Of a stretch of DNA of 56,177 bases, positions 42,350 to 55,450 are shown piece after piece. Below the pieces are notes generated by a model. It saw nothing but the letters and a program-made list of their open reading frames with translations. It had not been told where the DNA came from and did not search any database. Numbering within the stretch: the first letter of the stretch is position 1; the number at the start of each line of letters is the position of its first letter. The position numbers were made by a program, and so were the translations under genes. The DNA is from Fibrobacter sp. UWR4 (lineage in GTDB: Bacteria > Fibrobacterota > Fibrobacteria > Fibrobacterales > Fibrobacteraceae), in NCBI RefSeq assembly GCF_003149045.1, contig NZ_QGDU01000024.1:1-56177 (forward strand). Direction: 5' to 3'.

Positions 42350-42814
42350 TTAGCCAACCTGGTCCATGATCTTGTCGAAGTCGGTGGGTTTTTCGAAAAG
42401 CATCTTCTTCAGCTTTTGCATTTTGGGAAGGTTGGTGGCAGTATCCAAGCTGCCGCACTTGAGTGCTTCTTCGTAAAGGGCGGTTTTGTAGGTGATTTTA
42501 TCCAGCACTATCTGCAAGTTGGCCATTTCTTCTTCGATGGCGGCCTTGCGCTTGCGGAACATTTCTACGCGTTCGGCCAAGGTGGAATCGCCCATTTGGA
42601 ACCACTTGATGTACTGTGCGATTTCCTTGATTTGCAAGCCCGAGGACTTGAGGCATTCAATCATGGTGAGCCAGCCCAAATCGGATTCAGTGTAAACGCG
42701 GAGACCAGAGCTGCTCTTGGTGACGAAGGGGAGGAGCCCTTCCTTTTCGTAGTAGCGCAGGGTGTGGGCGCTAAGTCCTGTTTTCTTTACAACTTCTCCG
42801 ATAGAAAATCCCAT
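42350..42814 (-). CDS. MerR family transcriptional regulator
   Basis: A 154-residue MerR-type activator. The ATG at 42814 is chosen by the standard MerR start: FSIGEVVKKTGLSAHTLRYY, EKEGLLPF, SGLRVYTESDLGWLTMIECL. A long dimer helix follows (about 75-120: MGDSTLAERVEMFRKRKAAI), and the C-terminus has one Cys (KCGS, about 127). This is the AdhR/NmlR-like group, often answering aldehydes or electrophiles; the ligand is unknown. It is divergent from larE. The 42815-42946 gap carries a MerR-type promoter, and three more sites of the same sequence lie nearby, so it probably controls the whole lar-DUF362-flavodoxin region. Confidence 0.92.
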   Translation of the reverse strand: MGFSIGEVVKKTGLSAHTLRYYEKEGLLPFVTKSSSGLRVYTESDLGWLTMIECLKSSGLQIKEIAQYIKWFQMGDSTLAERVEMFRKRKAAIEEEMANLQIVLDKITYKTALYEEALKCGSLDTATNLPKMQKLKKMLFEKPTDFDKIMDQVG

Positions 42815-42870: not shown

Positions 42871-42901
42871 TTGACTTTGAGTCAACTCTAGATCTTATAT
42901 T
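42871..42901 (+). promoter_or_regulatory. MerR-type promoter a (larE)
   Basis: TTGACT (42871-42876), a 19-base spacer and TATATT (42896-42901). The spacer contains the dyad TTGAGTCAACTCTA. A 19-base spacer is the hallmark of promoters that MerR proteins open by DNA distortion. It drives larE, and overlaps the region from which the divergent MerR gene must be transcribed. Confidence 0.85.
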
Positions 42902-42946
42902 TAAGAGGCGTTTTTTAAAGGTTTTGAAAATTCCAGGTTTTTGAAA

Positions 42947-43798
42947 ATGGATGAACTGCATCAGAAATTCGAGTTGTTGAAATGCCAGTTGAGAGGTCTC
43001 GGCAAGGTTGCCGTGGCTTATTCTGCCGGCGTGGATTCTACGTTTCTGTTGAAGGTGGCTCATGATGTACTGGGAGTGAATGCGGTTGCCATTACGATAA
43101 AGTCCAGGGTGGTTCCTGGCCGCGAAATTCAGGAGGCTCTGGATTTTTGCAAGGCAGAAGGCATTCTCCATTTGGTCCTGGATTTTAACGAGATGGATGT
43201 GGACGGCTTTCGGGAGAATCCTCCTGACCGTTGCTATGTGTGCAAGCGTTCGATTTTTAAGGCCATCATCGGGGCGGCCGCGGAGCATGGGATTCCTGCA
43301 GTTTGTGAAGGCTCCAATGTGGATGACCTTGGAGATTACCGCCCGGGATTGAAGGCGATTGCGGAACTGAACGTGAAGAGCCCGCTCCGTGAGGCGGGCC
43401 TCACCAAGGCAGGCATCCGCACGTTGTCCCGGGAACTTGGGCTCCCGACGGCGAGCAAGCCCTCATTTGCCTGCCTTGCCAGCCGCATTCCTTACGGAGA
43501 ACAAATTACGGAAGAAAAATTGCGGCTGGTGGAGCGGGCCGAGCAGTATCTGCAGGATTTGGGTTTTGTTCAATATCGAGTTCGTTGCCGTCTTGTTCCG
43601 CAAAAATCGCCTGCTGCAGAAACCTATATGGCTAGCATAGAAATCCTGCCGGAGCAATTTCCCCTTTTCAGGGAAAAACAGGGGGAAATTACAGAAAAAC
43701 TCGTTCGTCTGGGTTTTTCGGACGTTGCACTGGACGAAAAGGGCTACCGTACCGGTAGTTTAAACGAAAAAATTTTTCAAAAAAATATCTTGCTTTAG
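42947..43798 (+). CDS. larE: LarE, sacrificial sulfur transferase for NPN cofactor
   Basis: A 283-residue ATP-dependent sulfur insertase that thiolates the pyridinium carboxylates during nickel-pincer nucleotide synthesis. It has the PP-loop SAGVDST (residues 26-32), PPDRCYVCK (93-100), CEGSNVDD (120-127) and SKPSFACLASRIPYGEQIT, with Cys176 at the place of the sacrificial cysteine of Lactiplantibacillus plantarum LarE (also Cys176). I chose ATG 42947; a TTG 6 bases upstream is in frame. The stop codon overlaps the next MerR-type promoter. The partner genes larB and larC lie at 47869 and 48612. Confidence 0.93.
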   Translation: MDELHQKFELLKCQLRGLGKVAVAYSAGVDSTFLLKVAHDVLGVNAVAITIKSRVVPGREIQEALDFCKAEGILHLVLDFNEMDVDGFRENPPDRCYVCKRSIFKAIIGAAAEHGIPAVCEGSNVDDLGDYRPGLKAIAELNVKSPLREAGLTKAGIRTLSRELGLPTASKPSFACLASRIPYGEQITEEKLRLVERAEQYLQDLGFVQYRVRCRLVPQKSPAAETYMASIEILPEQFPLFREKQGEITEKLVRLGFSDVALDEKGYRTGSLNEKIFQKNILL

Positions 43799-43820
43799 AG
43801 TTAACTCTAAGTATTATATT
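43790..43820 (+). promoter_or_regulatory. MerR-type promoter b (DUF362-tat-lar operon)
   Basis: TTGCTT (43790-43795), a 19-base spacer and TATATT (43815-43820). The spacer holds a perfect 14-base palindrome, TAGAGTTAACTCTA. The -35 box lies inside the last codons of larE. It precedes the operon starting at 43876. Confidence 0.85.
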
Positions 43821-43875: not shown

Positions 43876-44271
43876 ATGTGCTGTTTTGTCGCCCCCATGG
43901 CCGAAGCCATCGTTACCACCGTCACCACCATCGTTTTGGAACAGACCGACAAGTCTGCCAAGCAGGGTGCTGATCTTCAGGTTGCCACCAAGAAGCAGGC
44001 CATCTGCAAGAACCTGAAGGTCCTTTCCAAGATGCTTTGGGGCGGTTCTGTACTGTTGGCTTTTGAACATGTCTGGCACGGCGAACTGCAGGCCTTCTAT
44101 CCGTTTTTGACTGCGGCTTCCAGCCCCGAAGCCATGAGCCAGATGTGGCATGAAGTCGCTACCGTGGGTACATCCATGGCGGGCCTTGTTACAGTGGCCT
44201 GGGCCGCTCTTATGGCAGTCCGCAGCAAGTTCCACAAGGCTGTTCCTGCAGAAGTCGAGGCTCGCAAGTAA
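43876..44271 (+). CDS. Small membrane protein, first gene of DUF362 operon
   Basis: A 131-residue protein starting MCCFVAPMAEAIVTTVTTIV, with AAAAGGAG before the ATG. There are likely two or three hydrophobic segments (about residues 6-20, 50-65, 95-115). Conserved-looking His residues lie in FEHVWHGE and QMWHEV. I recognise no family. Its stop overlaps the next start by one base (TAATG), showing tight coupling. Together with the next gene it may form the membrane part of the system, for example an anchor or electron-transfer subunit for the Tat-exported DUF362 proteins. Confidence 0.72.
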   Translation: MCCFVAPMAEAIVTTVTTIVLEQTDKSAKQGADLQVATKKQAICKNLKVLSKMLWGGSVLLAFEHVWHGELQAFYPFLTAASSPEAMSQMWHEVATVGTSMAGLVTVAWAALMAVRSKFHKAVPAEVEARK

Positions 44272-44570
44272 TGGCTTTGCTCATAACCATTTTTGCAGCG
44301 ATTTTCTGCACCGTGCTCTGGTACCGCGATGTTGAGAACAAGATGCGTCTTTCTCCCTTGTGCTACATGTACTGGGGCGCATCCCTCATGTGGTTCGTAG
44401 ATGCCATTTTTGAATATGCAGAACTTCGCGCTGAATTTTTCACCCCGGCTGCAGGCGACATGCTGAATGACGCTTTCCTGGGTTTCTCCGCTGTGGCATT
44501 TGGCCTGGTGATTTGGCTTGCCATGCTCCTCATTAAAGACCCCAAGGGTCGTTTCCATAAGGTGGCTTAA
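44271..44570 (+). CDS. Small membrane protein, second gene of DUF362 operon
   Basis: A 99-residue protein with three predicted membrane helices (about residues 2-18, 26-47 and 68-87; CYMYWGASLMWFVDAIFEYA). It has no known family. The next gene starts directly after its stop, with no gap. Confidence 0.72.
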   Translation: MALLITIFAAIFCTVLWYRDVENKMRLSPLCYMYWGASLMWFVDAIFEYAELRAEFFTPAAGDMLNDAFLGFSAVAFGLVIWLAMLLIKDPKGRFHKVA

Positions 44571-45578
44571 ATGGATCGTCGTGATTTTATAAAGACTGTA
44601 GGCTCTGCCGCTTTGATTAGCGCCATGGCTACTCCCGTTTTTGGTAAGCCCAAGAACCAGGAAGTGAAGGAAGCCGGCAAGGATGTTTCCAACGTTTACT
44701 TCACCAAGGATCTTTCTGCCGAAGGCCTCATCAAGTTGTACAACAAGGTGAACCAGAATATTTCCGGCAAGGTGGCCATCAAGGTTCACACCGGTGAAAA
44801 GAACGGCCCCAACATTTTGCCCCGCGAATGGGTCAAAGCTGTGCAGCAGTTGATTCCCAATTCCAACATTGTGGAAACCAACACATACTACCATCCCAGC
44901 GACCGCGACACCACCGAAAAGCATCGCGAGACTTTGAAGGTAAACGGCTGGACTTTCTGCCCCGTGGACATCATGGACGAAGAAGGTACGGTGATGCTCC
45001 CTGTTCCTGGCGGCAAACACTTCAAGGAAATGAGCATGGGCGGCCATATCGTGAATTACGATTCCATGGTGGTGCTGACCCACTTCAAGGGCCATACCAT
45101 GGGTGGTTTCGGCGGTTCCCTCAAGAACATCGCCATCGGCTGTGCCGACGCCAATGTGGGCAAGAAGATGATTCACGAAAAGATGGAAGATCCGGATTTC
45201 AACGCAAAGCCGGAACTTTACCCCAAGTGGAGTAACAGCGGCAAGCGCTTCATGGAAGCCATGGCCGAATCCGGCAAGGCAACCGTCAATCACTTTAAGG
45301 GCAAGATGTGCTTTATCAATGTACTGCGCCGTATGTCCGTGGACTGCGACTGTGCTGGCGTTGGCGCTGCTGAACCCACTTGCCGCGACATCGGTATCCT
45401 TGCTTCCACCGATATTCTCGCTGTGGACCAGGCCAGCGTAGACATGGTTTACAAGCTGCCCATTGGCGAACTGAAGGATATCAAGGAACGCATTGAAAGC
45501 CGCGAAGGACTTCATCAGCTCCCTGCCATGGAAGCTCTGAAGATGGGCAACCGCAAGTATCGTATCATTGAACTTTAA
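44571..45578 (+). CDS. Tat-exported DUF362 protein, copy 1
   Basis: A 335-residue DUF362 protein with a twin-arginine signal (MDRRDFIKTVGSAALISAMA, cleavage near residue 25). The body starts VYFTKDLSAEGLIKLYNKV and continues KVAIKVHTGEKNGPNILP and VETNTYY. The core motif at 171-191 reads HFKGHTMGGFGGSLK then NIAIGC. His175, Lys185 and His202 are spaced 10 and 17; LarA uses His174, Lys184 and His200 for catalysis, NPN attachment and nickel binding. A second conserved block is RRMSVDCDCAG...PTCRDIGILASTDILAVDQA, with Cys that may bind metal. Cofactor genes larB, larC and larE share its regulation. Export of a folded, cofactor-loaded protein is what Tat does; NPN binding is my inference. Confidence 0.88.
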   Translation: MDRRDFIKTVGSAALISAMATPVFGKPKNQEVKEAGKDVSNVYFTKDLSAEGLIKLYNKVNQNISGKVAIKVHTGEKNGPNILPREWVKAVQQLIPNSNIVETNTYYHPSDRDTTEKHRETLKVNGWTFCPVDIMDEEGTVMLPVPGGKHFKEMSMGGHIVNYDSMVVLTHFKGHTMGGFGGSLKNIAIGCADANVGKKMIHEKMEDPDFNAKPELYPKWSNSGKRFMEAMAESGKATVNHFKGKMCFINVLRRMSVDCDCAGVGAAEPTCRDIGILASTDILAVDQASVDMVYKLPIGELKDIKERIESREGLHQLPAMEALKMGNRKYRIIEL

Positions 45579-45591
45579 TAAAAAGGCCGTT

Positions 45592-46575
45592 ATGGATCGT
45601 CGTGATTTTCTGAAGGCTTCTGCAGGTGCCGTTGCTGTGGCTGGTCTTACAAGTGCTGCAAACGCCGCTGCTCCCGCAAAAAACTCCAAGGAGGACAAGG
45701 TGTCTACCGTCTATTTTACCAAGGATCTCAGCGCCGCTGGCGTTCTGAAACTTTACGAAAAGGTGAAGCAGAATATTTCTGGTAAGGTGGCCATCAAGCT
45801 CCACACTGGCGAACCCAACGGTCCCAACATTATTCCCCGCGAATGGGATGAAGCCTTGCAGAAGGCTATTCCCAACAGTACCATCGTAGAGACCAACACC
45901 CTGTATCAAGGCGGCCGCTATACTACCGCCGATCACCGCAAGGCCCTGGAAGTCAATGGCTTCACCAAGTTCACCGTGGTGGACATTATGGACGAAGATG
46001 GCGAAACTCCCATTCCTGTGAAGGACGGTTACTGGCTCAAGGAATTGCATGTAGGCAAGCACATGCTGAACTACGATTCCATGGTGGTGTTCACCCACTT
46101 CAAGGGTCATGCCATGGGCGGCTTCGGCGGCTCCATGAAGAACATCGCCATCGGTTGCGCCGGCGGCCAGATTGGTAAGCGCGAAGTCCACTTGAATACA
46201 TCCGATGTAAATTCTTCTGCCGATTGGATTATGGGCGCCAAGTTCATGGAACTGATGGGCGACTCCGCTAAGGCTACCTGCGATCATTTCAAGGGCAAGA
46301 TGTGCTTCATCAACGTGCTGCGCCGTATGTCCGTGGACTGCGACTGTGCAGGCACCAGTGCTGCAGAACCTACCTGCCGCGATATCGGTATCCTTGCTTC
46401 TACCGACATTTTGGCTGTGGACCAGGCTAGCATTGACATGGTTTACAAGCTTCCTCCCAAGGAACTTGCCGACCTGAAGGAACGTATCGAATCCCGCGAA
46501 GGTTTGCATCAGCTTGACGCCATGGAACACCATAAGATGGGTTCCCGCAAGTACAAACTGGTGGAAGTTTTGTAA
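45592..46575 (+). CDS. Tat-exported DUF362 protein, copy 2
   Basis: A 327-residue paralogue of the preceding protein. The ATG at 45592 follows AAAAAGGCCGTT; an in-frame TTG upstream would break the Tat signal. Signal: MDRRDFLKASAGAVAVAGLT. The same motifs are kept: KVAIKLHTGEPNGPNIIP, HFKGHAMGGFGGSMK then NIAIGC, and RRMSVDCDCAGTSAAEPTC. Here the candidate cofactor residues are His173, Lys183 and His200, almost the LarA numbering, with His115 (TTADHRK) in a place that may match LarA His108. Two copies in tandem may form a heterodimer or act on different substrates. It is followed by tatA. Confidence 0.88.
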   Translation: MDRRDFLKASAGAVAVAGLTSAANAAAPAKNSKEDKVSTVYFTKDLSAAGVLKLYEKVKQNISGKVAIKLHTGEPNGPNIIPREWDEALQKAIPNSTIVETNTLYQGGRYTTADHRKALEVNGFTKFTVVDIMDEDGETPIPVKDGYWLKELHVGKHMLNYDSMVVFTHFKGHAMGGFGGSMKNIAIGCAGGQIGKREVHLNTSDVNSSADWIMGAKFMELMGDSAKATCDHFKGKMCFINVLRRMSVDCDCAGTSAAEPTCRDIGILASTDILAVDQASIDMVYKLPPKELADLKERIESREGLHQLDAMEHHKMGSRKYKLVEVL

Positions 46576-46931: not shown

Positions 46932-47840
46932 ATGATTAGTAAAGATTCTCAGGAACAGACGCTGGTTTCTCACCTGGAAGCCTTGCGTACGGCGTTGATT
47001 CACTGTTTTGTGGCGCTAGGCATCGGGATTATCCCGATGTTTTTGTTGTCGTCCTATATTCTTGACTGGTTCAGCGCAGAGCTTGTTGCCCAGAGCGGCG
47101 CAACCCTTCATTACTTCTCTCCCATGGAAGTGTTCCTGCTGCAGCTAAAAATCGCGGCACTTATGGATTGCGTCATCTGTTCTCCGTACATTGCCTGGAA
47201 CTTGTGGAAGTTTGTACTACCGGGCCTTTACGATAACGAACGGAAGTTTGTCCGTTCCATTGTGTGGATGACCAGTGGGCTTTTTATTTCGGGCGTGGTG
47301 TTCTGCCTAGGAATTTGCTTCCCGCTGGTGGTGCGCTTCGGTATGAGTTTTGAAAGCGAAACTCTACAGCCAATTTTCGGTGTGGAAAACATCGTTACGC
47401 TGGCTTTGTGGCTTTCCCTAGCTTTTGGATGCATGTTCCTGTTCCCGCTGGTGACTTACGCTCTGATTCGCTCTGGCGTTGTTTATTACGAAACAGTCTG
47501 TCACGCACGCCCTTATGTGGTGGTGGGAATCCTTGTGTTGGCGGCTTTGCTGACTCCGCCGGATATTATTAGCCAGCTGATTCTGGGCGCTCCTACCTAT
47601 CTACTTTTTGAAGCGGGTTTGTTTGCTGCTCGAAAACATAAAGGCGAACAGTTCAAGGAATGTAATGAAGAAAATTCGCCTGTTCATGTGGAGGCCGAAT
47701 CAGGCTCTCTTTCGCAAAAAAAATCGCAAAATTCGCATGACGCAACATTTGGTGAATCCGAGGATGTCGACTTTGCTGCCCCAGCCTCTCCTTATCAGGT
47801 AGGAACAGAGCGAAACGCAGACAAGTGGAAGCCTAATTGA
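46932..47840 (+). CDS. tatC: Twin-arginine translocase subunit TatC
   Basis: A 302-residue TatC, the receptor for twin-arginine signals. The N-terminal motif is SHLEALRTALIHC (with the key Glu and Arg), followed by six membrane helices. Other typical parts are FSPMEVFLLQLKIAAL, NLWKFVLPGLYDNERKFVR (F-x-x-P-x-L), FGMSFE and VGILVLAALLTPPDIISQLIL. The C-terminal 60 residues are a polar extension rich in Glu and Ser, longer than in E. coli TatC. There is no Shine-Dalgarno sequence; the heptamer repeat abuts the start. larB follows 28 bases later. Confidence 0.95.
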   Translation: MISKDSQEQTLVSHLEALRTALIHCFVALGIGIIPMFLLSSYILDWFSAELVAQSGATLHYFSPMEVFLLQLKIAALMDCVICSPYIAWNLWKFVLPGLYDNERKFVRSIVWMTSGLFISGVVFCLGICFPLVVRFGMSFESETLQPIFGVENIVTLALWLSLAFGCMFLFPLVTYALIRSGVVYYETVCHARPYVVVGILVLAALLTPPDIISQLILGAPTYLLFEAGLFAARKHKGEQFKECNEENSPVHVEAESGSLSQKKSQNSHDATFGESEDVDFAAPASPYQVGTERNADKWKPN

Positions 47841-47868
47841 TATTTAAAAACTGCCTAAGATTTTGATT

Positions 47869-48576
47869 ATGAAGAATACTCTTGCAAATGATCGTTACGA
47901 AGACATTGGTTTTGCAAAGTTGGACGTGAGCCGTGAAAAGCGTACTGGTACTGCCGAGGCGATTTACTGCGCGGGAAAAACCAAGGAGCAACTTCTGAAA
48001 ATTCTCCAGACTTTCGAGGAGAATGGCTGTTCCGTACTTGGAACCAAGTGCAGTGCCGAGCAGTATGAGTTTGTAAGAGCGAAAATGCCGAAGGCCTGTT
48101 ACAACGAAATTGCCAAAATCATCTCTGTAAAAGCAGGCAAGGCCGCTCCCAACGCTTCAAAGAAATCAGGCAAGAATCGTGGAACCATCGCGGTTTGCTG
48201 TGCCGGTACTGCCGACTTGCCCGTTGCCGAAGAGGCCGCCTTGACAGCGGAATTTTTCGGGGCCAAGGTCATGCGCCATTATGATGTGGGCATCGCCGGG
48301 CTCCATCGGCTGCTTTCTAAGATTGAGGAAATCCGCAAGGCGGATGTGGTTATCGCTGTGGCTGGTATGGAAGGGGCGCTGGCTGGTGTCATTGCTGGAC
48401 TCGTCAAGGCTCCCGTGATTGCTGTACCGACGTCTGTTGGATACGGCGCTTCTTTTCAGGGCGTGGCTCCGCTTTTGACCATGTTGAATACCTGTGCCGA
48501 AGGCGTTTCCGTGGTGAACATTGACAATGGTTTTGGTGCGGCAGTGAGTGCCGTTAGAATGCTGAACATCAAATAA
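47869..48576 (+). CDS. larB: LarB, pyridinium carboxylase/hydrolase for NPN cofactor
   Basis: A 235-residue LarB. It carboxylates C5 of the pyridinium ring of nicotinic acid adenine dinucleotide and hydrolyses the phosphoanhydride, the first step of NPN synthesis. The C-terminal part resembles AIR carboxylase (PurE): IAVCCAGTADLPVAEEAALT, VMRHYDVGIAGLHRLL, VVIAVAGMEGALAGVIAGLV and VIAVPTSVGYGASFQG. The N-terminal part has FAKLDVSREKRTGTAEAIYC. The ATG at 47869 is chosen over an in-frame TTG at 47863. Confidence 0.95.
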   Translation: MKNTLANDRYEDIGFAKLDVSREKRTGTAEAIYCAGKTKEQLLKILQTFEENGCSVLGTKCSAEQYEFVRAKMPKACYNEIAKIISVKAGKAAPNASKKSGKNRGTIAVCCAGTADLPVAEEAALTAEFFGAKVMRHYDVGIAGLHRLLSKIEEIRKADVVIAVAGMEGALAGVIAGLVKAPVIAVPTSVGYGASFQGVAPLLTMLNTCAEGVSVVNIDNGFGAAVSAVRMLNIK

Positions 48577-48611
48577 CTTTAGTGCGGCGTAGCTCGCGGA
48601 ATTTTGATTTT

Positions 48612-49871
48612 ATGAAATATCTTTATCTGGATGGATCTTGCGGAATTAGTGGCGACATGACTGTTGCCGCCTTGTTGGACCTGGGTGCTTCCCGTGAAAA
48701 GCTGGATGCCGCCATCAACAGCATGCATCTTGAGGAAATGCACTGCCATTTCGGTCGTGGTAATTCTTACAGTATTGCCGGGGCAACCTTTGATGTTCAC
48801 GTTCATACCCATCATGGTGAAGAAAGCGCAGATCATGTTCACGCCCATGAAGGATGCTACGTAGAACATCACCATGAACATCATCATTCCCATGAGCACC
48901 GCCACCTGAAGGAATGCTACGGTATCTTGGAACATGTGGCTAGCCATGGTACCCTTTCCCAGAACGCCCTTGCCCTAGCCAAGAAAATTTTTTTGATGAT
49001 TGCCCAGGCCGAGGCGAAGGCTCACGGCGTTGCAGTAGAAGATGTCCATTTTCACGAAGTAGGTGCCATTGACTCCATCGTGGATATCATGGCGGTGGCT
49101 ATTTTGGTAGAAGACCTGCAGGAAACTCAAGGCGTTTCTCAAGTGGTGGTGACGGGCCTTAACGAAGGTTCCGGATTTGTGCAGACCCAGCATGGAATGC
49201 TCCCGATTCCTGTTCCTGCGGTGGCAAGCATTGCAGAATCCGCAGGCATCGCGCTCCACATAACAGATACCAAAGGCGAGATGGTAACTCCCACAGGAAT
49301 CGGCGTGGTAGCCGCTATCCGTACCTGCGAAAAACTTCCTGTGAGTTACAAGATTTTGAAATCCGGCATCGGACTTGGCAAACGCGATTTCGGTCGAGCC
49401 AATTTCCTGCGTGCCCAAATCATCGAAAGTGTTGAAGATGAAAATCGCGGGGGTGATGAAGTCTTCATGGTGGAATGCAATATCGATGACCAGAGTCCCG
49501 AAGAACTGGGTCTTGCCATGGACAAGATTTTCGAAGCTGGAGCCAAGGACGTTTACTTTGTTCCGTGCTACATGAAGAAGAACCGCCCGGCCGTCGTTCT
49601 TCACGCTCTTGCGGATAGCGAAAAGCTTCCCCAGGTGGAAACCGCCATTTTGCGTCACACGAATACGGTGGGCATCCGTCGTTATCCCGTCACCCGCACC
49701 TGTATGGGACGGACTTTTGCCGACGTAGAAACTCCCTATGGAACAGTGAAAGTCAAGAAGTGCAAACTGGGCGACATCGAAAAGTGTAAACCCGAATTCG
49801 AAAGCGTGAAGGAAGTTGCCGAAAAGGCTGGCGTTACCTTCCGCGAAGTTTCAGAAGCTGCAAAAAGGTAA
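48612..49871 (+). CDS. larC: LarC, nickel insertase for NPN cofactor
   Basis: A 419-residue LarC that inserts nickel into the dithiolated pincer using CTP. It begins YLYLDGSCGISGDM, followed at about residues 55-100 by a very His-rich stretch (HVHTHHGEE; HHHEHHHSHEHRH), a likely nickel store. Later parts are VHFHEVGAIDSIVDIMAVAI, TPTGIGVVAAI, and the C-terminal catalytic region ECNIDDQSPEELGLAMDKIF, DVYFVPCYMKKNRPAVVL and ILRHTNTVGIRRYPVTRTCM. The gene is one continuous frame, unlike L. plantarum, where larC needs a programmed frameshift. It ends the operon. Confidence 0.95.
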   Translation: MKYLYLDGSCGISGDMTVAALLDLGASREKLDAAINSMHLEEMHCHFGRGNSYSIAGATFDVHVHTHHGEESADHVHAHEGCYVEHHHEHHHSHEHRHLKECYGILEHVASHGTLSQNALALAKKIFLMIAQAEAKAHGVAVEDVHFHEVGAIDSIVDIMAVAILVEDLQETQGVSQVVVTGLNEGSGFVQTQHGMLPIPVPAVASIAESAGIALHITDTKGEMVTPTGIGVVAAIRTCEKLPVSYKILKSGIGLGKRDFGRANFLRAQIIESVEDENRGGDEVFMVECNIDDQSPEELGLAMDKIFEAGAKDVYFVPCYMKKNRPAVVLHALADSEKLPQVETAILRHTNTVGIRRYPVTRTCMGRTFADVETPYGTVKVKKCKLGDIEKCKPEFESVKEVAEKAGVTFREVSEAAKR

Positions 49872-51378: not shown

Positions 51379-51856
51379 ATGGCCGCAAGTAAAGTGATTG
51401 AACGTCTCTTTGAATACGATGATTATCGTAAGTTTCTGCAGGATTATTTTGAAGAGCAGAAAAATCAAAGTGCTGTATTTTCTCACCGTTTTTTTGCGGC
51501 GAAGGCCGGTTTCAAGACATCCTCCTATTGTCTGAATGTGATTCGTGGTCGTTTGAATGCCTCAAGGATTCCGGCCTCCAGATTAAGGAAATCCGCCAGT
51601 ACATCGAATGGTTCCGTCAGAGAGATTCTACCCTTCAACAGCGTCTTGAACTTTTCCAGAACCGCCGTAAGGCCCTGGAAGCAGAAATGGCCCGCATGCA
51701 GACCGTGATGAACAAGATCACCTTCAAGGAAACCTTGTACACCACAGCCCTCAAGTTGGGAAGTCTCGCCGCTGCCGACAACGACAAGACCATCATGCGC
51801 CTGAAAAAAAGCTCTTTGACTCTCCGGATGATTTTGACAAGAAAGTCGCCGGCTAA
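51379..51856 (+). pseudogene. Chimera of TIGR02147 N-terminus and MerR C-terminus
   Basis: From 51379 the frame reads VIERLFEYDDYRKFLQDYFE, AVFSHRFFAAKAGFKTSSYC and LNVIRGR, nearly identical to copy B at 31175. Near 51552 the homology switches, in another frame, to a MerR C-terminal part (ECLKDSGLQIKEIRQYIEWF, MARMQTVMNKITFKETLY) close to the regulator at 42350. The MerR DNA-binding domain is missing. A second lesion, a run of seven A at 51804-51810 where eight would keep the frame, shifts the end; with the extra A it would read KLFDSPDDFDKKVAG and stop at 51854-51856. Both source genes are therefore broken here by a deletion fusion. Confidence 0.85.
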
Positions 51857-51905
51857 TCATTTCACCGACAAATAGCAGACGAATCAAGTTTTCACAAACA
51901 AAAAA

Positions 51906-51932
51906 TCCTGGGCAACGCCCGGGACTTTTTTT
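51906..51932. terminator. Bidirectional terminator
   Basis: TCC-t-GGGC pairs with GCCC-g-GGA around AAC, with A/T runs on both sides. It serves the minus-strand fusion gene and the broken plus-strand chimera. Confidence 0.85.
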
Positions 51933-53349
51933 AAAGGCCGTTACTTTTCAGCCAGCGATCTATACGAGAATTCAGGTCTCTTCCGCCGCTGTAGTAGAAT
52001 TCAAAGGGGAACCCTACATAGCTTTTCTGCAGTTTCTTGTTTAAGTCAGAAACGCTGTCGCCGTAGCGGGTGCCCCCATGGCTGGAAAAGCCGGCAACGG
52101 TCTTGCCCTTGAAATCATAGCTTTCCAGGAAGGTGAATACGGGCATGGGAATGGTGGCCCACCAGGTAGGATACCCCAGCAAGACAACGCTGTACTTGGA
52201 CATGTCTTTGATTTTTGTCCTGAGAGGAGGGCGAGCGTCGCTATTCAAGTCCTTTTGGGTAACTTCGTAAATGCCACCGCGGTAAGGCTTTGCCATTTCG
52301 ATTTCCACAAGGTCAACATTTCCGTCGCCGTACTTCTTTTTCATCTGCTTTGAAACGTATTCCGCTGCACTTTGGGTGTTGCCGGAATAGCTGAAGTAGG
52401 CTATGAGAATTTTCAGATTTTTTGGAATGCTGATGGCATTGATTTCGGGATTGAATTTCGTTTCAATGATTGCGGCGGAATTTGCATCTCCAGACTTTGC
52501 ATTGCGTGCAATTCTAAAGCCGAGATTACGATCATTATCCAGCGGATTGGTGGCAGAACGGTAGGCGCTTCTCAGGTGCTTTCCAAAATCGTTGTAGGCA
52601 CCGCCACGATTCACACGGTAAATTCCAACGCGCGGTCCTGCAGGGTTCAGCTTTTCCGTTTCATTATATTCACCGTAGTAGTCAAAGACCCATTCGCTGA
52701 CATTGCCGTGCATATTGTACAATCCAAAAGCGTTTGGCTTGTAGGAATCAACGGCAACGGGTTCATCAATAACGGAGCCGGGCACCACATTCTTGTTGGT
52801 GTGATGCATATAGTTTTCTTCAATTAGGTACGGATAGCTTCCGTAATAGTTGGCGTCTTCAACGCGGTTCCAGTTTCCGGTGCTGAAAACTGTTGTAGTT
52901 CCTGCACGATTGGCGTATTCCCATTCCGCCTCGGTAAGCAAACGGTAGCCGTTGGCACCACGATTCCAGGTGACAGTTATGTCGCGGGCCCTGCCAGATT
53001 CGCCACGACTGACCCTATAGGCTTCCTGCAAACCTTCCGCTCGACTTTTGGCGTTGCAAAATTCAATGGCGTCGTAGTAGGTGACGTTCTGAACAGGGAG
53101 ATTCCCGCCTTTAAAGGTACTGGGATTTTTGCCGGTGATTTTTTCGTAATCCTTTTGCTGAACTTCGTAGGCGTCCACATAAAAATCGCCGAGAGTTACG
53201 GAATGCTGTTTTTCGTCCAGTTGACGCTGGCGTTCCGTAGTGGGGCTTCCCATGGTAAACATTCCGCCCTTTACAAGCATCATCTTACTTTCTGCAAATG
53301 CAGAAACGACAAGACTGAATATGCCGATTGCAATAACGCATTTTTTCAT
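51931..53349 (-). CDS. Exported FGE-like domain fused to flavodoxin
   Basis: A 472-residue protein with a signal peptide (about residues 1-19). Residues 22-290 are a formylglycine-generating-enzyme-like domain (MMLVKGGMFTMGSPTTE, VTYYDAIEFCNAKS, GYRLLTEAEWEYANRAGTTT, GLYNMHGNVSEWVFDYYG, VNRGGAYNDFGKHLRSAYRS, LGFRIA). The usual active-site Cys near R-C-A-x-R is Ser here (RSAYR), so enzyme activity is unlikely. Residues about 310-472 are a flavodoxin (ILIAYFSYSGNTQSAAEYVS, GYPTWWATIPMPVFTFLE, FSSHGGTRYGDSV). An exported flavodoxin is unusual. It lies 37 bases after the membrane gene at 53387, so both should share promoter d. Confidence 0.85.
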   Translation of the reverse strand: MKKCVIAIGIFSLVVSAFAESKMMLVKGGMFTMGSPTTERQRQLDEKQHSVTLGDFYVDAYEVQQKDYEKITGKNPSTFKGGNLPVQNVTYYDAIEFCNAKSRAEGLQEAYRVSRGESGRARDITVTWNRGANGYRLLTEAEWEYANRAGTTTVFSTGNWNRVEDANYYGSYPYLIEENYMHHTNKNVVPGSVIDEPVAVDSYKPNAFGLYNMHGNVSEWVFDYYGEYNETEKLNPAGPRVGIYRVNRGGAYNDFGKHLRSAYRSATNPLDNDRNLGFRIARNAKSGDANSAAIIETKFNPEINAISIPKNLKILIAYFSYSGNTQSAAEYVSKQMKKKYGDGNVDLVEIEMAKPYRGGIYEVTQKDLNSDARPPLRTKIKDMSKYSVVLLGYPTWWATIPMPVFTFLESYDFKGKTVAGFSSHGGTRYGDSVSDLNKKLQKSYVGFPFEFYYSGGRDLNSRIDRWLKSNGL

Positions 53350-53386
53350 AAAACGACCTTTGCGAATTTTAAGGCTCGTGGATTAA

Positions 53387-54034
53387 TCAAGATTTTTTAA
53401 GAAGTTTCATTCCCAAATGGGTCATGATACACATGCCTGCTGAAATCCCAAGCAACTGTAAAACTGCAGCGGAGACGCTTTCTGCGGCCAGCTTCCAACC
53501 GCCGGTAACGAACATGTATACATAAAGTTGGGACTGTACAAATCCGTAAACGCCGGCAGAAATCAACAGTCCGTAGGCGATAGACAACAATGACATTTTC
53601 CAGATACGGCTGCGACAGAAATTTTCCAACTTATCCAGTTTCGTGTCAAGATGGAATCCTAAATGAAATAGCATCACCATAAAGCCCCAACAGCAACTAG
53701 CCAAGTGAACTTCGCGAGCAGTCTGCGTCGCCTTCATAGGGGACCATTCAAAAACAAGCCCCGTCATGAAAATGGAGCTGACAGCCATGGTAATCATCAG
53801 GGCGAAAAGGATCCAGTCCATAACGTTCATGGCGATACGTCGGGCATTCCATTTTCCCTTGGCCATAGATCTATAAAACCAGAAGTTCATCCCATGATGA
53901 ACCACAAATAAAACGAAGAGAGCTATGCCCACATACCCATGGCTGGTAAGGTCATGGATGGCTCCATAACTCATGAGGTACAGAAAGCAGCTGTACATCA
54001 ATACGTCAATGATGATTTTTGCAGTTCGTTTCAT
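53387..54034 (-). CDS. DUF4405-like membrane protein, possible cytochrome b
   Basis: A 215-residue protein with about five membrane helices. His residues lie in places suitable for haem: LFVVHHGMNFWFYRS (about residues 42-56), REVHLASCCWGFMVMLFHLG (about 107-126, two His), and THLGMK near the end. This resembles DUF4405 proteins, related to b-type cytochromes. It could pass electrons from the membrane to the exported flavodoxins. The start codon lies 55 bases after the -10 box of MerR-type promoter d. Confidence 0.75.
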   Translation of the reverse strand: MKRTAKIIIDVLMYSCFLYLMSYGAIHDLTSHGYVGIALFVLFVVHHGMNFWFYRSMAKGKWNARRIAMNVMDWILFALMITMAVSSIFMTGLVFEWSPMKATQTAREVHLASCCWGFMVMLFHLGFHLDTKLDKLENFCRSRIWKMSLLSIAYGLLISAGVYGFVQSQLYVYMFVTGGWKLAAESVSAAVLQLLGISAGMCIMTHLGMKLLKKS

Positions 54035-54088
54035 TTAGGTGCAAATATTCCCTGCCGATGGATTTGGTCATCAAAAGAATTTCCCATA

Positions 54089-54119
54089 AATATAAGACCT
54101 GGAGCTAGCTCTAGGTCAA
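54089..54119 (-). promoter_or_regulatory. MerR-type promoter d (DUF4405-flavodoxin operon)
   Basis: On the minus strand: TTGACC (54119-54114), a 19-base spacer and TATATT (54094-54089). The spacer contains TAGAGCTAGCTCCA, and the wider dyad ACCTAGAGC/GCTCCAGGT is almost symmetrical. It drives the gene starting at 54034. Confidence 0.82.
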
Positions 54120-54178
54120 GGGTTGCATCGCATTTTTTAGAAAATTATTTTTAAAGTGCCGCGACGCGCAATCTGTAC

Positions 54179-54721
54179 TTATTTAATGTAATAGACGTAG
54201 TTTTCCTTGCGGGCGAGTGCCTTGGGCTCGGGAGTCTGGCGGTAGCCTAATGCCACGTGGCCGATGCCTTCGTAGTTGCCCTTGATGCCCAGCTTTTCAA
54301 GAAGGGCCTTGCCAAATTCGCTGTCGAACTCCTGACGGGCACGGTGGATCCAGACGCTGCCCAGGCCGATACTGGCTGCGGCATTCATCAGGTTTCCCAT
54401 AACAAGACTGCCATCGTTGATGTAGGTGCCAGAAGCATTATTGGCATCGCGATCGGCGATGACAATCAGGATGACGGGCGCGCCATAGAAGGGATCGAAA
54501 CCTTCTTCCCAGCCGCCAATCTTGCGGTTTTCTTCGGCAATCTGGTCGCGGACTTCCTTGTTGGTAACGGCAATGATGATGGAAGACTGCTGGTTCTTTC
54601 CGGAAGGGGCGAATGTGCCTGCGCGAAGCACGGCTTCCAATTCCTCGTCGGTAATCATGTCGGGCTTGAACTTGCGGCAGCTGCGGCGAGTTTCCAGAGT
54701 CATCAGGGTTTCGTTCATCAT
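54179..54721 (-). CDS. Nitroreductase family protein
   Basis: A 180-residue FMN-dependent nitroreductase-like protein. I place the start at 54721, or the adjacent ATG at 54718, after ATAGGTAAAGCA; a longer frame is possible but lacks a site. Motifs: LETRRSCRKFKPDMITDEEL (FMN phosphate Arg residues), AGTFAPSGKNQQSS, NDGSLVMGNLMNAAASIGLG and GIGHVALGYRQTPEP. It probably reduces nitro, quinone or related compounds with NAD(P)H. It lies between two MerR-type promoters and reads away from the flavodoxin gene; its own promoter may overlap site c on the other strand. Confidence 0.88.
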   Translation of the reverse strand: MMNETLMTLETRRSCRKFKPDMITDEELEAVLRAGTFAPSGKNQQSSIIIAVTNKEVRDQIAEENRKIGGWEEGFDPFYGAPVILIVIADRDANNASGTYINDGSLVMGNLMNAAASIGLGSVWIHRARQEFDSEFGKALLEKLGIKGNYEGIGHVALGYRQTPEPKALARKENYVYYIK

Positions 54722-54837
54722 TGCTTTACCTATGGCGAAAAAGTTTTGACGAGGGCCATTCGGCACCACGTTCATTATAAAAATAGCATTTTCAAATAAC
54801 CGACTTTAAAAAAATTGAAATTTATTCAAATAAGGTC

Positions 54838-54868
54838 TTGACCTAGAGTCAACTCTAGGTGATATATT
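54838..54868 (+). promoter_or_regulatory. MerR-type promoter c (exported flavodoxin)
   Basis: TTGACC (54838-54843), a 19-base spacer and TATATT (54863-54868). The spacer carries CCTAGAGTC/AACTCTAGG, an 18-base dyad with one mismatch. The flavodoxin start codon follows at 54890, giving a leader of about 15 bases. Confidence 0.85.
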
Positions 54869-54889
54869 ATAGCACAAAAAGAGGTTTCA

Positions 54890-55450
54890 ATGAAAAAGAT
54901 CATCCTCATCTTTTTAACAATCCTTATGGGGGCTGCCATGGCTGCTGAATCCAAGAAACTAGTCGTCTACTATTCTCGCGCTGACGAAAACTACAGTGTG
55001 GGCTACATCAAAAAAGGCAATACAGAAATCATTGCCGAAATCATCGCGGCAAAGACTGGCGCAACGCTTCTGAAAGTGGAACCCGCCAAGGAATACCCGA
55101 AGGTTTACGATGAGTGTATTGCGGTTGCAAAAAAGGAATTGGCAAACGACGCCCGTCCCGAAATTAAACCGGTTAGTGTCAATCCGGAAGAATACGACGA
55201 AATCTATGTCGGATATCCCGTGTGGTGGGGCGAAATGCCTATGCCCATGGTAACCTTCTTCGAAAAGTACAATCTGAAGGGTAAAACTATTCATCCTTTT
55301 GTCACTCACGAAGGTAGCGGTCTCAGCGGTGTAGCCCGACTTAAGAAATTGACCGGCGCCAATGTTACTATGGGTCTCGCCATTTATGGTCACGTTGCCC
55401 AGAACGAAAAGTCCAAGGCCGAAAAAGACGTGGAAAAGTGGATTAAGTAA
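54890..55450 (+). CDS. Exported flavodoxin
   Basis: A 186-residue flavodoxin with an N-terminal signal peptide (KKIILIFLTILMGAAMAAES, cleavage near residue 19). The FMN loop region is LVVYYSRADENYSVGYIKKG followed by NTEIIAEIIAAKTG; GYPVWWGEMPMPMVTFFE (about residues 105-122) and THEGSGLSGVARL (about 143-155) complete the fold. Cytoplasmic versions are common (flavodoxin_4 type); the signal makes this one periplasmic or lipid-free exported. It matches the flavodoxin half of the fusion at 51931 (GYPTWWATIPMPVF). The promoter is of the MerR type. Confidence 0.88.
   Translation: MKKIILIFLTILMGAAMAAESKKLVVYYSRADENYSVGYIKKGNTEIIAEIIAAKTGATLLKVEPAKEYPKVYDECIAVAKKELANDARPEIKPVSVNPEEYDEIYVGYPVWWGEMPMPMVTFFEKYNLKGKTIHPFVTHEGSGLSGVARLKKLTGANVTMGLAIYGHVAQNEKSKAEKDVEKWIK

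Follow-up and report, generated by a model that had tools for sequence, protein, structure and literature searches.

A putative extracytoplasmic cytochrome b–flavodoxin module associated with exported DUF362 proteins in Fibrobacter and other bacteria

The window analyzed here is a 56,177-nucleotide stretch of Fibrobacter sp. UWR4 (contig NZ_QGDU01000024.1, positions 1 to 56,177, forward strand). It contains a gene for an exported fusion of an FGE-like domain and a flavodoxin, an adjacent gene for a putative haem-b membrane protein of the DUF4405 family, and a gene for a second exported flavodoxin. The fusion and DUF4405 recur as a module in Fibrobacterota, Spirochaetota, Clostridia, and Coriobacteriales. 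In the window, the promoters of these genes resemble those of larE, a gene of nickel-pincer cofactor biosynthesis, and of an operon for exported DUF362 proteins. It is fairly likely that the module is an electron-transfer chain outside the cytoplasm. For the whole mechanism proposed below, in which the DUF362 proteins would be the leading but not the sole client, we estimate a probability of about 0.55.

Genes and conservation of the module

The genes and predicted promoters of the module in the window are as follows.

51931..53349, minus strand: exported fusion of an FGE-like domain and Flavodoxin_4, 472 aa (signal, residues 1-19; FGE-like, 21-282; flavodoxin, 313-472)
53387..54034, minus strand: DUF4405 cytochrome b-like membrane protein, 215 aa, with six predicted helices and His32, His46, His110, and His124; upstream operon partner of the fusion
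54089..54119, minus strand: MerR-type promoter/operator (TTGACC-N19-TATATT, central dyad) for DUF4405 and the fusion
54179..54775, minus strand: nitroreductase-family protein between the two transcription units, with no signal seen; membership in the module uncertain
54838..54868, plus strand: MerR-type promoter/operator for the free flavodoxin
54890..55450, plus strand: exported free Flavodoxin_4, 186 aa, PRK06934-like

The open reading frames (ORFs), strands, and domains described in a first-pass annotation of this DNA agree with the ORF list and a Pfam search. The fusion matches FGE-sulfatase (PF03781; 137 bits, residues 21-282) and Flavodoxin_4 (PF12682; 75 bits, residues 313-445), and the free flavodoxin matches Flavodoxin_4 at 70.9 bits. 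As phosphate loop for flavin mononucleotide (FMN), the fusion has SYSGNT and the free flavodoxin has KKGNTE. Among PDB entries, the flavodoxin part of the fusion matches 4ici and 3klb, and the FGE-like part has matches to FGE. Some close relatives have another exported-type flavodoxin near the site of the window nitroreductase.

Signal peptides were called with a simple hydropathy/AXA script. Both window flavodoxins have signal peptides, as the first-pass annotation had stated. The signals are of the Sec type (MKKCVIAIGIFSLVVSAFA followed by ES, and MKKIILIFLTILMGAAMA followed by AES), and the Fibrobacter homologues have the same type, a few only after start-codon correction and a few in the form of lipoprotein signals. 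For the fusion, the signal is of the Sec type in most Fibrobacter and spirochaete proteins, of the Tat type in Coriobacteria, and of the lipoprotein type in Clostridia. The presence of three kinds of export signals in different phyla argues that the outside location of the fusion is itself under selection. The idea that these are ordinary cytosolic flavodoxins was rejected because export signals are a conserved trait of the module. The annotation was mistaken in regarding exported flavodoxins as rare, since signal-bearing Flavodoxin_4 proteins are common in many Bacteroidota, Bacillota (many Clostridia), Synergistota, Spirochaetota, and Coriobacteria (80 loci of the genome scan), often beside cytosolic copies; the electron-chain idea is nonetheless well founded. 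The genome scan used alignment A4, with A1 being too diverse for this purpose. Flavinylation of the window flavodoxins by ApbE was also considered and rejected. Despite the single ApbE encoded in the genome, the motif D(G/A)x(S/T)G(A/S)(S/T) was absent from both window flavodoxins and from all 27 Fibrobacter homologues tested, although a motif of another form is possible.

The FGE-like domain has the FGE-sulfatase fold (137 bits) and lacks the two active-site cysteines of FGE. The segment that in FGE carries both of these residues reads RVNRGGAYNDFGKHLRSAYR (RGGAYNDFGKHLR) in the fusion and has no cysteine. Among the 46 homologues scanned, the signature RV.RGG..(N/I)DF(G/A)K..R has no cysteine at the FGE sites wherever it is readable. 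Judged by its sequence, the domain is not an FGE enzyme. The reported loss of the catalytic cysteine is thus confirmed, but its significance had been overstated, as its absence is usual in proteins of the FGE fold, for example PvdO or GldK/PorK. In one Fibrobacter genome (L076/L019, G003:C5), the FGE-like and flavodoxin parts are in different frames, which represents a gene fission or a frameshift.

The DUF4405 gene lies 37 bp upstream of the fusion gene on the same strand. Its product matches PF14358 with 30.0 bits (cut-off 26.7) and has six hydrophobic segments. Among 50 aligned sequences, H32, H110, and H124 are present in all and H46 in 49. Because of the positive-inside topology of the hydrophobic segments, H32 and H110 are predicted to be close to the outer face and H46 and H124 close to the inner face. 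The DUF4405 family comprises haem-b cytochromes found in gene clusters with apbE and Flavodoxin_4, with haem b binding demonstrated solely in a member from Oscillospiraceae (PMC11334425). This family assignment and the four conserved histidines support the suggestion in the first-pass annotation that a haem-b-like membrane protein with suitably placed histidines precedes the fusion in its operon. The window proteins themselves would bind haem and FMN.

A search for the gene set in other phyla, as the annotation had proposed, found it in Spirochaetota, Clostridia, and Coriobacteriales. Within Fibrobacter, the fusion and DUF4405 genes are adjacent in both gene orders. A spirochaete metagenome-assembled genome (MAG), L109, has consecutive genes for DUF4405, the FGE-flavodoxin, and an exported DUF362 protein, and the Coriobacteriaceae MAG L118 has the same DUF4405/FGE-flavodoxin pair. 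In the Clostridia MAG L167, DUF4405, the FGE-like domain, and the flavodoxin are combined in one 773-aa ORF (confirmed by Pfam). Such single-chain proteins occur in at least eight Clostridia and contain an additional helix, by which the FGE-flavodoxin part would be placed outside. Matches that span both domains of the fusion were found in 7 of 199 genomes in the order of the Coriobacteriaceae MAG, 12 of 295 in the order of the Clostridia MAG, and about 17 of 296 Spirochaetota genomes. DUF4405 accompanies the fusion in 30 of 35 loci, being fused in 7 and nearby in 23. The five loci without a clear DUF4405 include three near contig ends (L222, L223, and L229), one with a weak partial match (L237), and one with none (L232). 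MAG contigs are short, which limits such neighbourhood surveys. Four spirochaete loci (L242-L245) have an unfused module, in which the FGE-like protein and an exported flavodoxin are encoded by separate adjacent genes beside DUF4405. In addition, an ECF transporter S component is encoded within the spirochaete module of L109 (2800-3411) and may supply flavin to the exported flavodoxins.

MerR-type promoters and the link to DUF362 and lar genes

The second gene group of the window consists of the following features.

42350..42814, minus strand: MerR-family protein (P0001) beside larE, which probably regulates the four dyad promoters
42871..42901, plus strand: MerR-type promoter/operator upstream of larE
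42941..43798, plus strand: LarE, nickel-pincer cofactor sulfur transferase
43790..43820, plus strand: MerR-type promoter/operator upstream of the DUF362 operon
43876..44271, plus strand: small membrane protein of 131 aa with a conserved place next to DUF362 in spirochaetes
44271..44570, plus strand: small membrane protein of 99 aa with a conserved place next to DUF362 in spirochaete L233
44571..45578, plus strand: exported DUF362 protein a, with N-terminal DRRDFIKT, Tat-like
45568..46575, plus strand: exported DUF362 protein b, with a Tat signal and a LarA-like fold
46932..47840, plus strand: TatC, Tat translocase subunit
47863..48576, plus strand: LarB, nickel-pincer cofactor biosynthesis
48582..49871, plus strand: LarC (C1+C2), nickel-pincer cofactor biosynthesis

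Four near-identical promoters, which precede the free flavodoxin, DUF4405/fusion, larE, and the DUF362 operon, fit TTGACYTAGAGNNARCTCTARRTNNTATATT with at most two mismatches. The 19-bp spacer is typical of MerR-family targets. In 100 shuffles, no promoter of this MerR-type architecture was found, and chance co-location of the dyads was rejected accordingly. This control tests the similarity of the sites and not their function, because the consensus was read from the same sites. Genome-wide, the 22-base dyad pattern has only two perfect matches, both of which belong to the sites described here, and the best other site precedes a gene for an MBL-fold hydrolase on contig C14. In close relatives, MerR-type sites precede the corresponding genes and merR. 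The four promoters would form one regulon, with the MerR protein binding the dyads. The MBL-fold hydrolase (L085 355-1476, G000 contig C14) lies behind a dyad with two mismatches, and its homologues adjoin the module in other Fibrobacter. The window also has a remnant at 51379-51880 that begins like TIGR02147 and continues as the C-terminal half of a merR gene, of the same family as 42350-42814; in close relatives, merR is intact at this place and adjoins the fusion gene.

DUF362 proteins of the window type are encoded in 28 of the 38 non-Fibrobacter genomes with the module. In 11 of these 38 genomes, the fusion has an exported DUF362 gene at a distance of no more than 10 kb; copy number and genome size would predict 0.42 such cases. 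Given that the genomes are related, the corresponding Poisson tail (1e-12) is a guide only. All DUF362 proteins in the non-Fibrobacter module stretches bear export signals. In the spirochaete locus L233, 11 kb contain larE, larB, larC, homologues of both small membrane proteins of the window (43876-44271 and 44271-44570), DUF362, the free flavodoxin, the FGE-flavodoxin, and DUF4405. In Fibrobacter L102, one stretch contains the flavodoxin, FGE-flavodoxin, DUF4405, larE, larC, larB, tatC, and DUF362. A conserved neighbourhood of the module with DUF362/lar genes, on which the first-pass annotation had staked its proposed link, therefore exists. In four loci (L219 5957-6871, L220, L226, and L233), an ArsP_1-type permease gene adjoins the exported DUF362 gene.

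The likeness of DUF362 to LarA comes from fold comparison only, as a DUF362 profile found nothing relevant among PDB chains by sequence. The DUF362 model (mean predicted confidence, pLDDT, 81.5) matches LarA-family structures at Z 13-15, with the next unrelated fold at Z 4.8. The comparison with the LarA family gives VIA Z 15.3, root mean square deviation 3.0, and 204 aligned, with Foldseek E 2.6e-06. One of the two paralogues has a Lar_N match of 16.3 bits, below the cut-off of 23.3, and both DUF362 and Lar_N (DUF2088) belong to Pfam clan CL0471 (PMC11770544). In alignment A5, H123, H177, H181, K191, and H208 are invariant, and they may include counterparts of the nickel-pincer-binding Lys and catalytic His of LarA. 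A DCDC motif is also invariant. Based on the model, the paralogues at 44571-46575 are candidate exported nickel-pincer enzymes. The LarA fold, together with larB, larC, and tatC in the operon behind larE, fits a pincer-cofactor enzyme that is exported in a folded state. A search for canonical LarA beside larC in eight other genomes found none with a home-made, unvalidated motif, and this result is given no weight.

Proposed electron-transfer mechanism and alternatives

The module may be a MerR-regulated extracytoplasmic electron-transfer chain. DUF4405, with six helices and two bis-histidine b haems, one per face, would be supplied with electrons by the quinol pool or by a donor in the cytosol and hand them across the membrane to the FMN of the flavodoxin that carries the FGE-like domain. 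The free exported flavodoxin would be a mobile or parallel carrier, and the FGE-like domain most likely serves as a scaffold for docking or substrate binding, keeping the flavodoxin close to the cytochrome or a client. The flavodoxins would then pass electrons on to extracytoplasmic redox enzymes. The leading candidates for such clients here are the Tat-type, LarA-fold DUF362 proteins of the co-regulated larE/larB/larC/tatC operon, which would be loaded with the nickel-pincer cofactor in the cytoplasm and then exported folded. The direction of electron flow, the role of the FGE-like domain, DUF362 as client, and the cofactor in DUF362 are parts of this mechanism that we infer. A more specific version, which we offer tentatively and consider rather improbable, is that the exported DUF362 protein works as a nickel-pincer-nucleotide oxidoreductase instead of a racemase. 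It would acquire its cofactor in the cytoplasm, leave through Tat, and, once outside, receive electrons from or give them up to a dedicated haem-b-FMN chain that is conserved across Fibrobacterota, Spirochaetota, Clostridia, and Coriobacteria.

Several observations weigh against the proposed mechanism. The export signals were identified by a heuristic script only. AlphaFold modelled the fusion poorly (pLDDT 52.7), and this model was not used. Neither flavodoxin has the ApbE motif, yet published extracytosolic flavodoxins bind flavin covalently. The operator is common to one Fibrobacter clade only, and the F. succinogenes clade has it at larB alone. In the spirochaete MAG L109, DUF362 is present and no LarC was found, although this MAG may be incomplete. 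Furthermore, 10 of the 38 module genomes lack DUF362 of this type, and many Fibrobacter have the module distant from DUF362 or have no DUF362, so that DUF362 cannot be the sole client. The first-pass idea that the chain serves the exported DUF362 proteins is partly supported: the link to DUF362/lar genes is backed by the common operator, the linkage in 11 of 38 genomes, and loci L233 and L102, whereas electron delivery to the DUF362 proteins is a hypothesis, and many loci have no DUF362 nearby.

These loci also bear on the possibility that the module works independently of the lar/DUF362 operon within one stress (MerR/LysR) regulon, with the flavodoxins serving other partners, exported or cytosolic, for example aldo/keto reductases, carboxymuconolactone-decarboxylase (CMD)/cupin proteins, or nitroreductases in defence against reactive carbonyls or quinones. 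Aldo/keto reductases (17 loci), cupin or CMD/cupin proteins (12), and LysR regulators (11) are frequent neighbours that accompany the module no less often than DUF362, and Fibrobacter relatives have lipoprotein aldo/keto reductase and CMD/cupin genes within the cluster. However, linkage to DUF362 is well above chance in three phyla besides Fibrobacterota, and the module-linked DUF362 proteins all have export signals, whereas those near free flavodoxins only (L121 and L129) look cytosolic. Separate functions are somewhat unlikely. It is less probable still that the FGE-like domain remains enzymatic, as in PvdO-like FGE-fold enzymes, and that the fused flavodoxin is its own donor in a self-contained exported enzyme. 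Some FGE-fold relatives without the catalytic cysteine are enzymes, and the (N/I)DF(G/A)K signature recurs in every readable fusion, but the FGE cysteines are absent and many proteins with this fold, among them GldK/PorK and TvpA, have structural or binding roles. Finally, electrons may flow inward, from an exported nickel-pincer DUF362 dehydrogenase that oxidises an external hydroxy compound, through the flavodoxins and DUF4405 to the quinone pool. In nickel-pincer chemistry, a hydride is transferred from 2-hydroxy acids (PMC12611868, PMC11770544). A cytochrome with a haem at each face could work in both directions, but no quinone-reductase-like partner was identified. Flavodoxins are usually low-potential donors, which also counts against inward flow, and we regard this direction as very unlikely.

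Relation to known systems and significance

DUF4405 as a haem-b family associated with Flavodoxin_4 is already known, as are exported flavodoxins. The systems described in Bacillota and Proteobacteria, with DUF4405 cytochromes and (flavinylated) Flavodoxin_4 (PMC11334425, mSystems 2024), resemble the module in the membrane family with four central histidines, the extracytoplasmic flavodoxin family, and the gene adjacency. Unlike those systems, the window flavodoxins have no ApbE motif, an FGE-like domain is fused, three domains are sometimes found in one chain, and a DUF362/lar linkage exists. The periplasmic methionine sulfoxide reductase system MsrPQ likewise has a haem-b membrane protein that feeds an exported, Tat-translocated enzyme, whereas the window has DUF4405 instead of MsrQ, flavodoxin intermediates, and no molybdoenzyme. 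With the LarA superfamily and its partners LarB, LarC, and LarE, the window DUF362 proteins share a predicted fold like that of the LarA N-domain and an operon with larE, larB, and larC, but they are shorter, exported, under the Lar_N cut-off, and have the DCDC motif, and their cofactor is putative. PvdO, GldK/PorK, and TvpA also have an extracytoplasmic FGE-like fold without the FGE cysteines; in contrast, the FGE-like domain of the window is fused to a flavodoxin and has its own RGG..NDF(G/A)K signature. No literature on FGE-like–flavodoxin fusions or exported DUF362 proteins was found, with subscription papers lying outside the coverage. The new elements are the cross-phylum module of the fusion and DUF4405, its linkage to exported DUF362, the MerR regulon, and the LarA-like fold of DUF362.

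Taken together, gut bacteria of several phyla have a recurrent cytochrome/FGE-like/flavodoxin module, sometimes in one chain, that would transfer electrons outside the cytoplasm. DUF4405, the FGE-like domains of the NDFGK type, and DUF362 are three unassigned families that gain a shared context. The link to exported proteins with a nickel-pincer fold suggests unexplored extracytoplasmic chemistry, and nickel-pincer chemistry with a net redox change outside the cytoplasm becomes testable.

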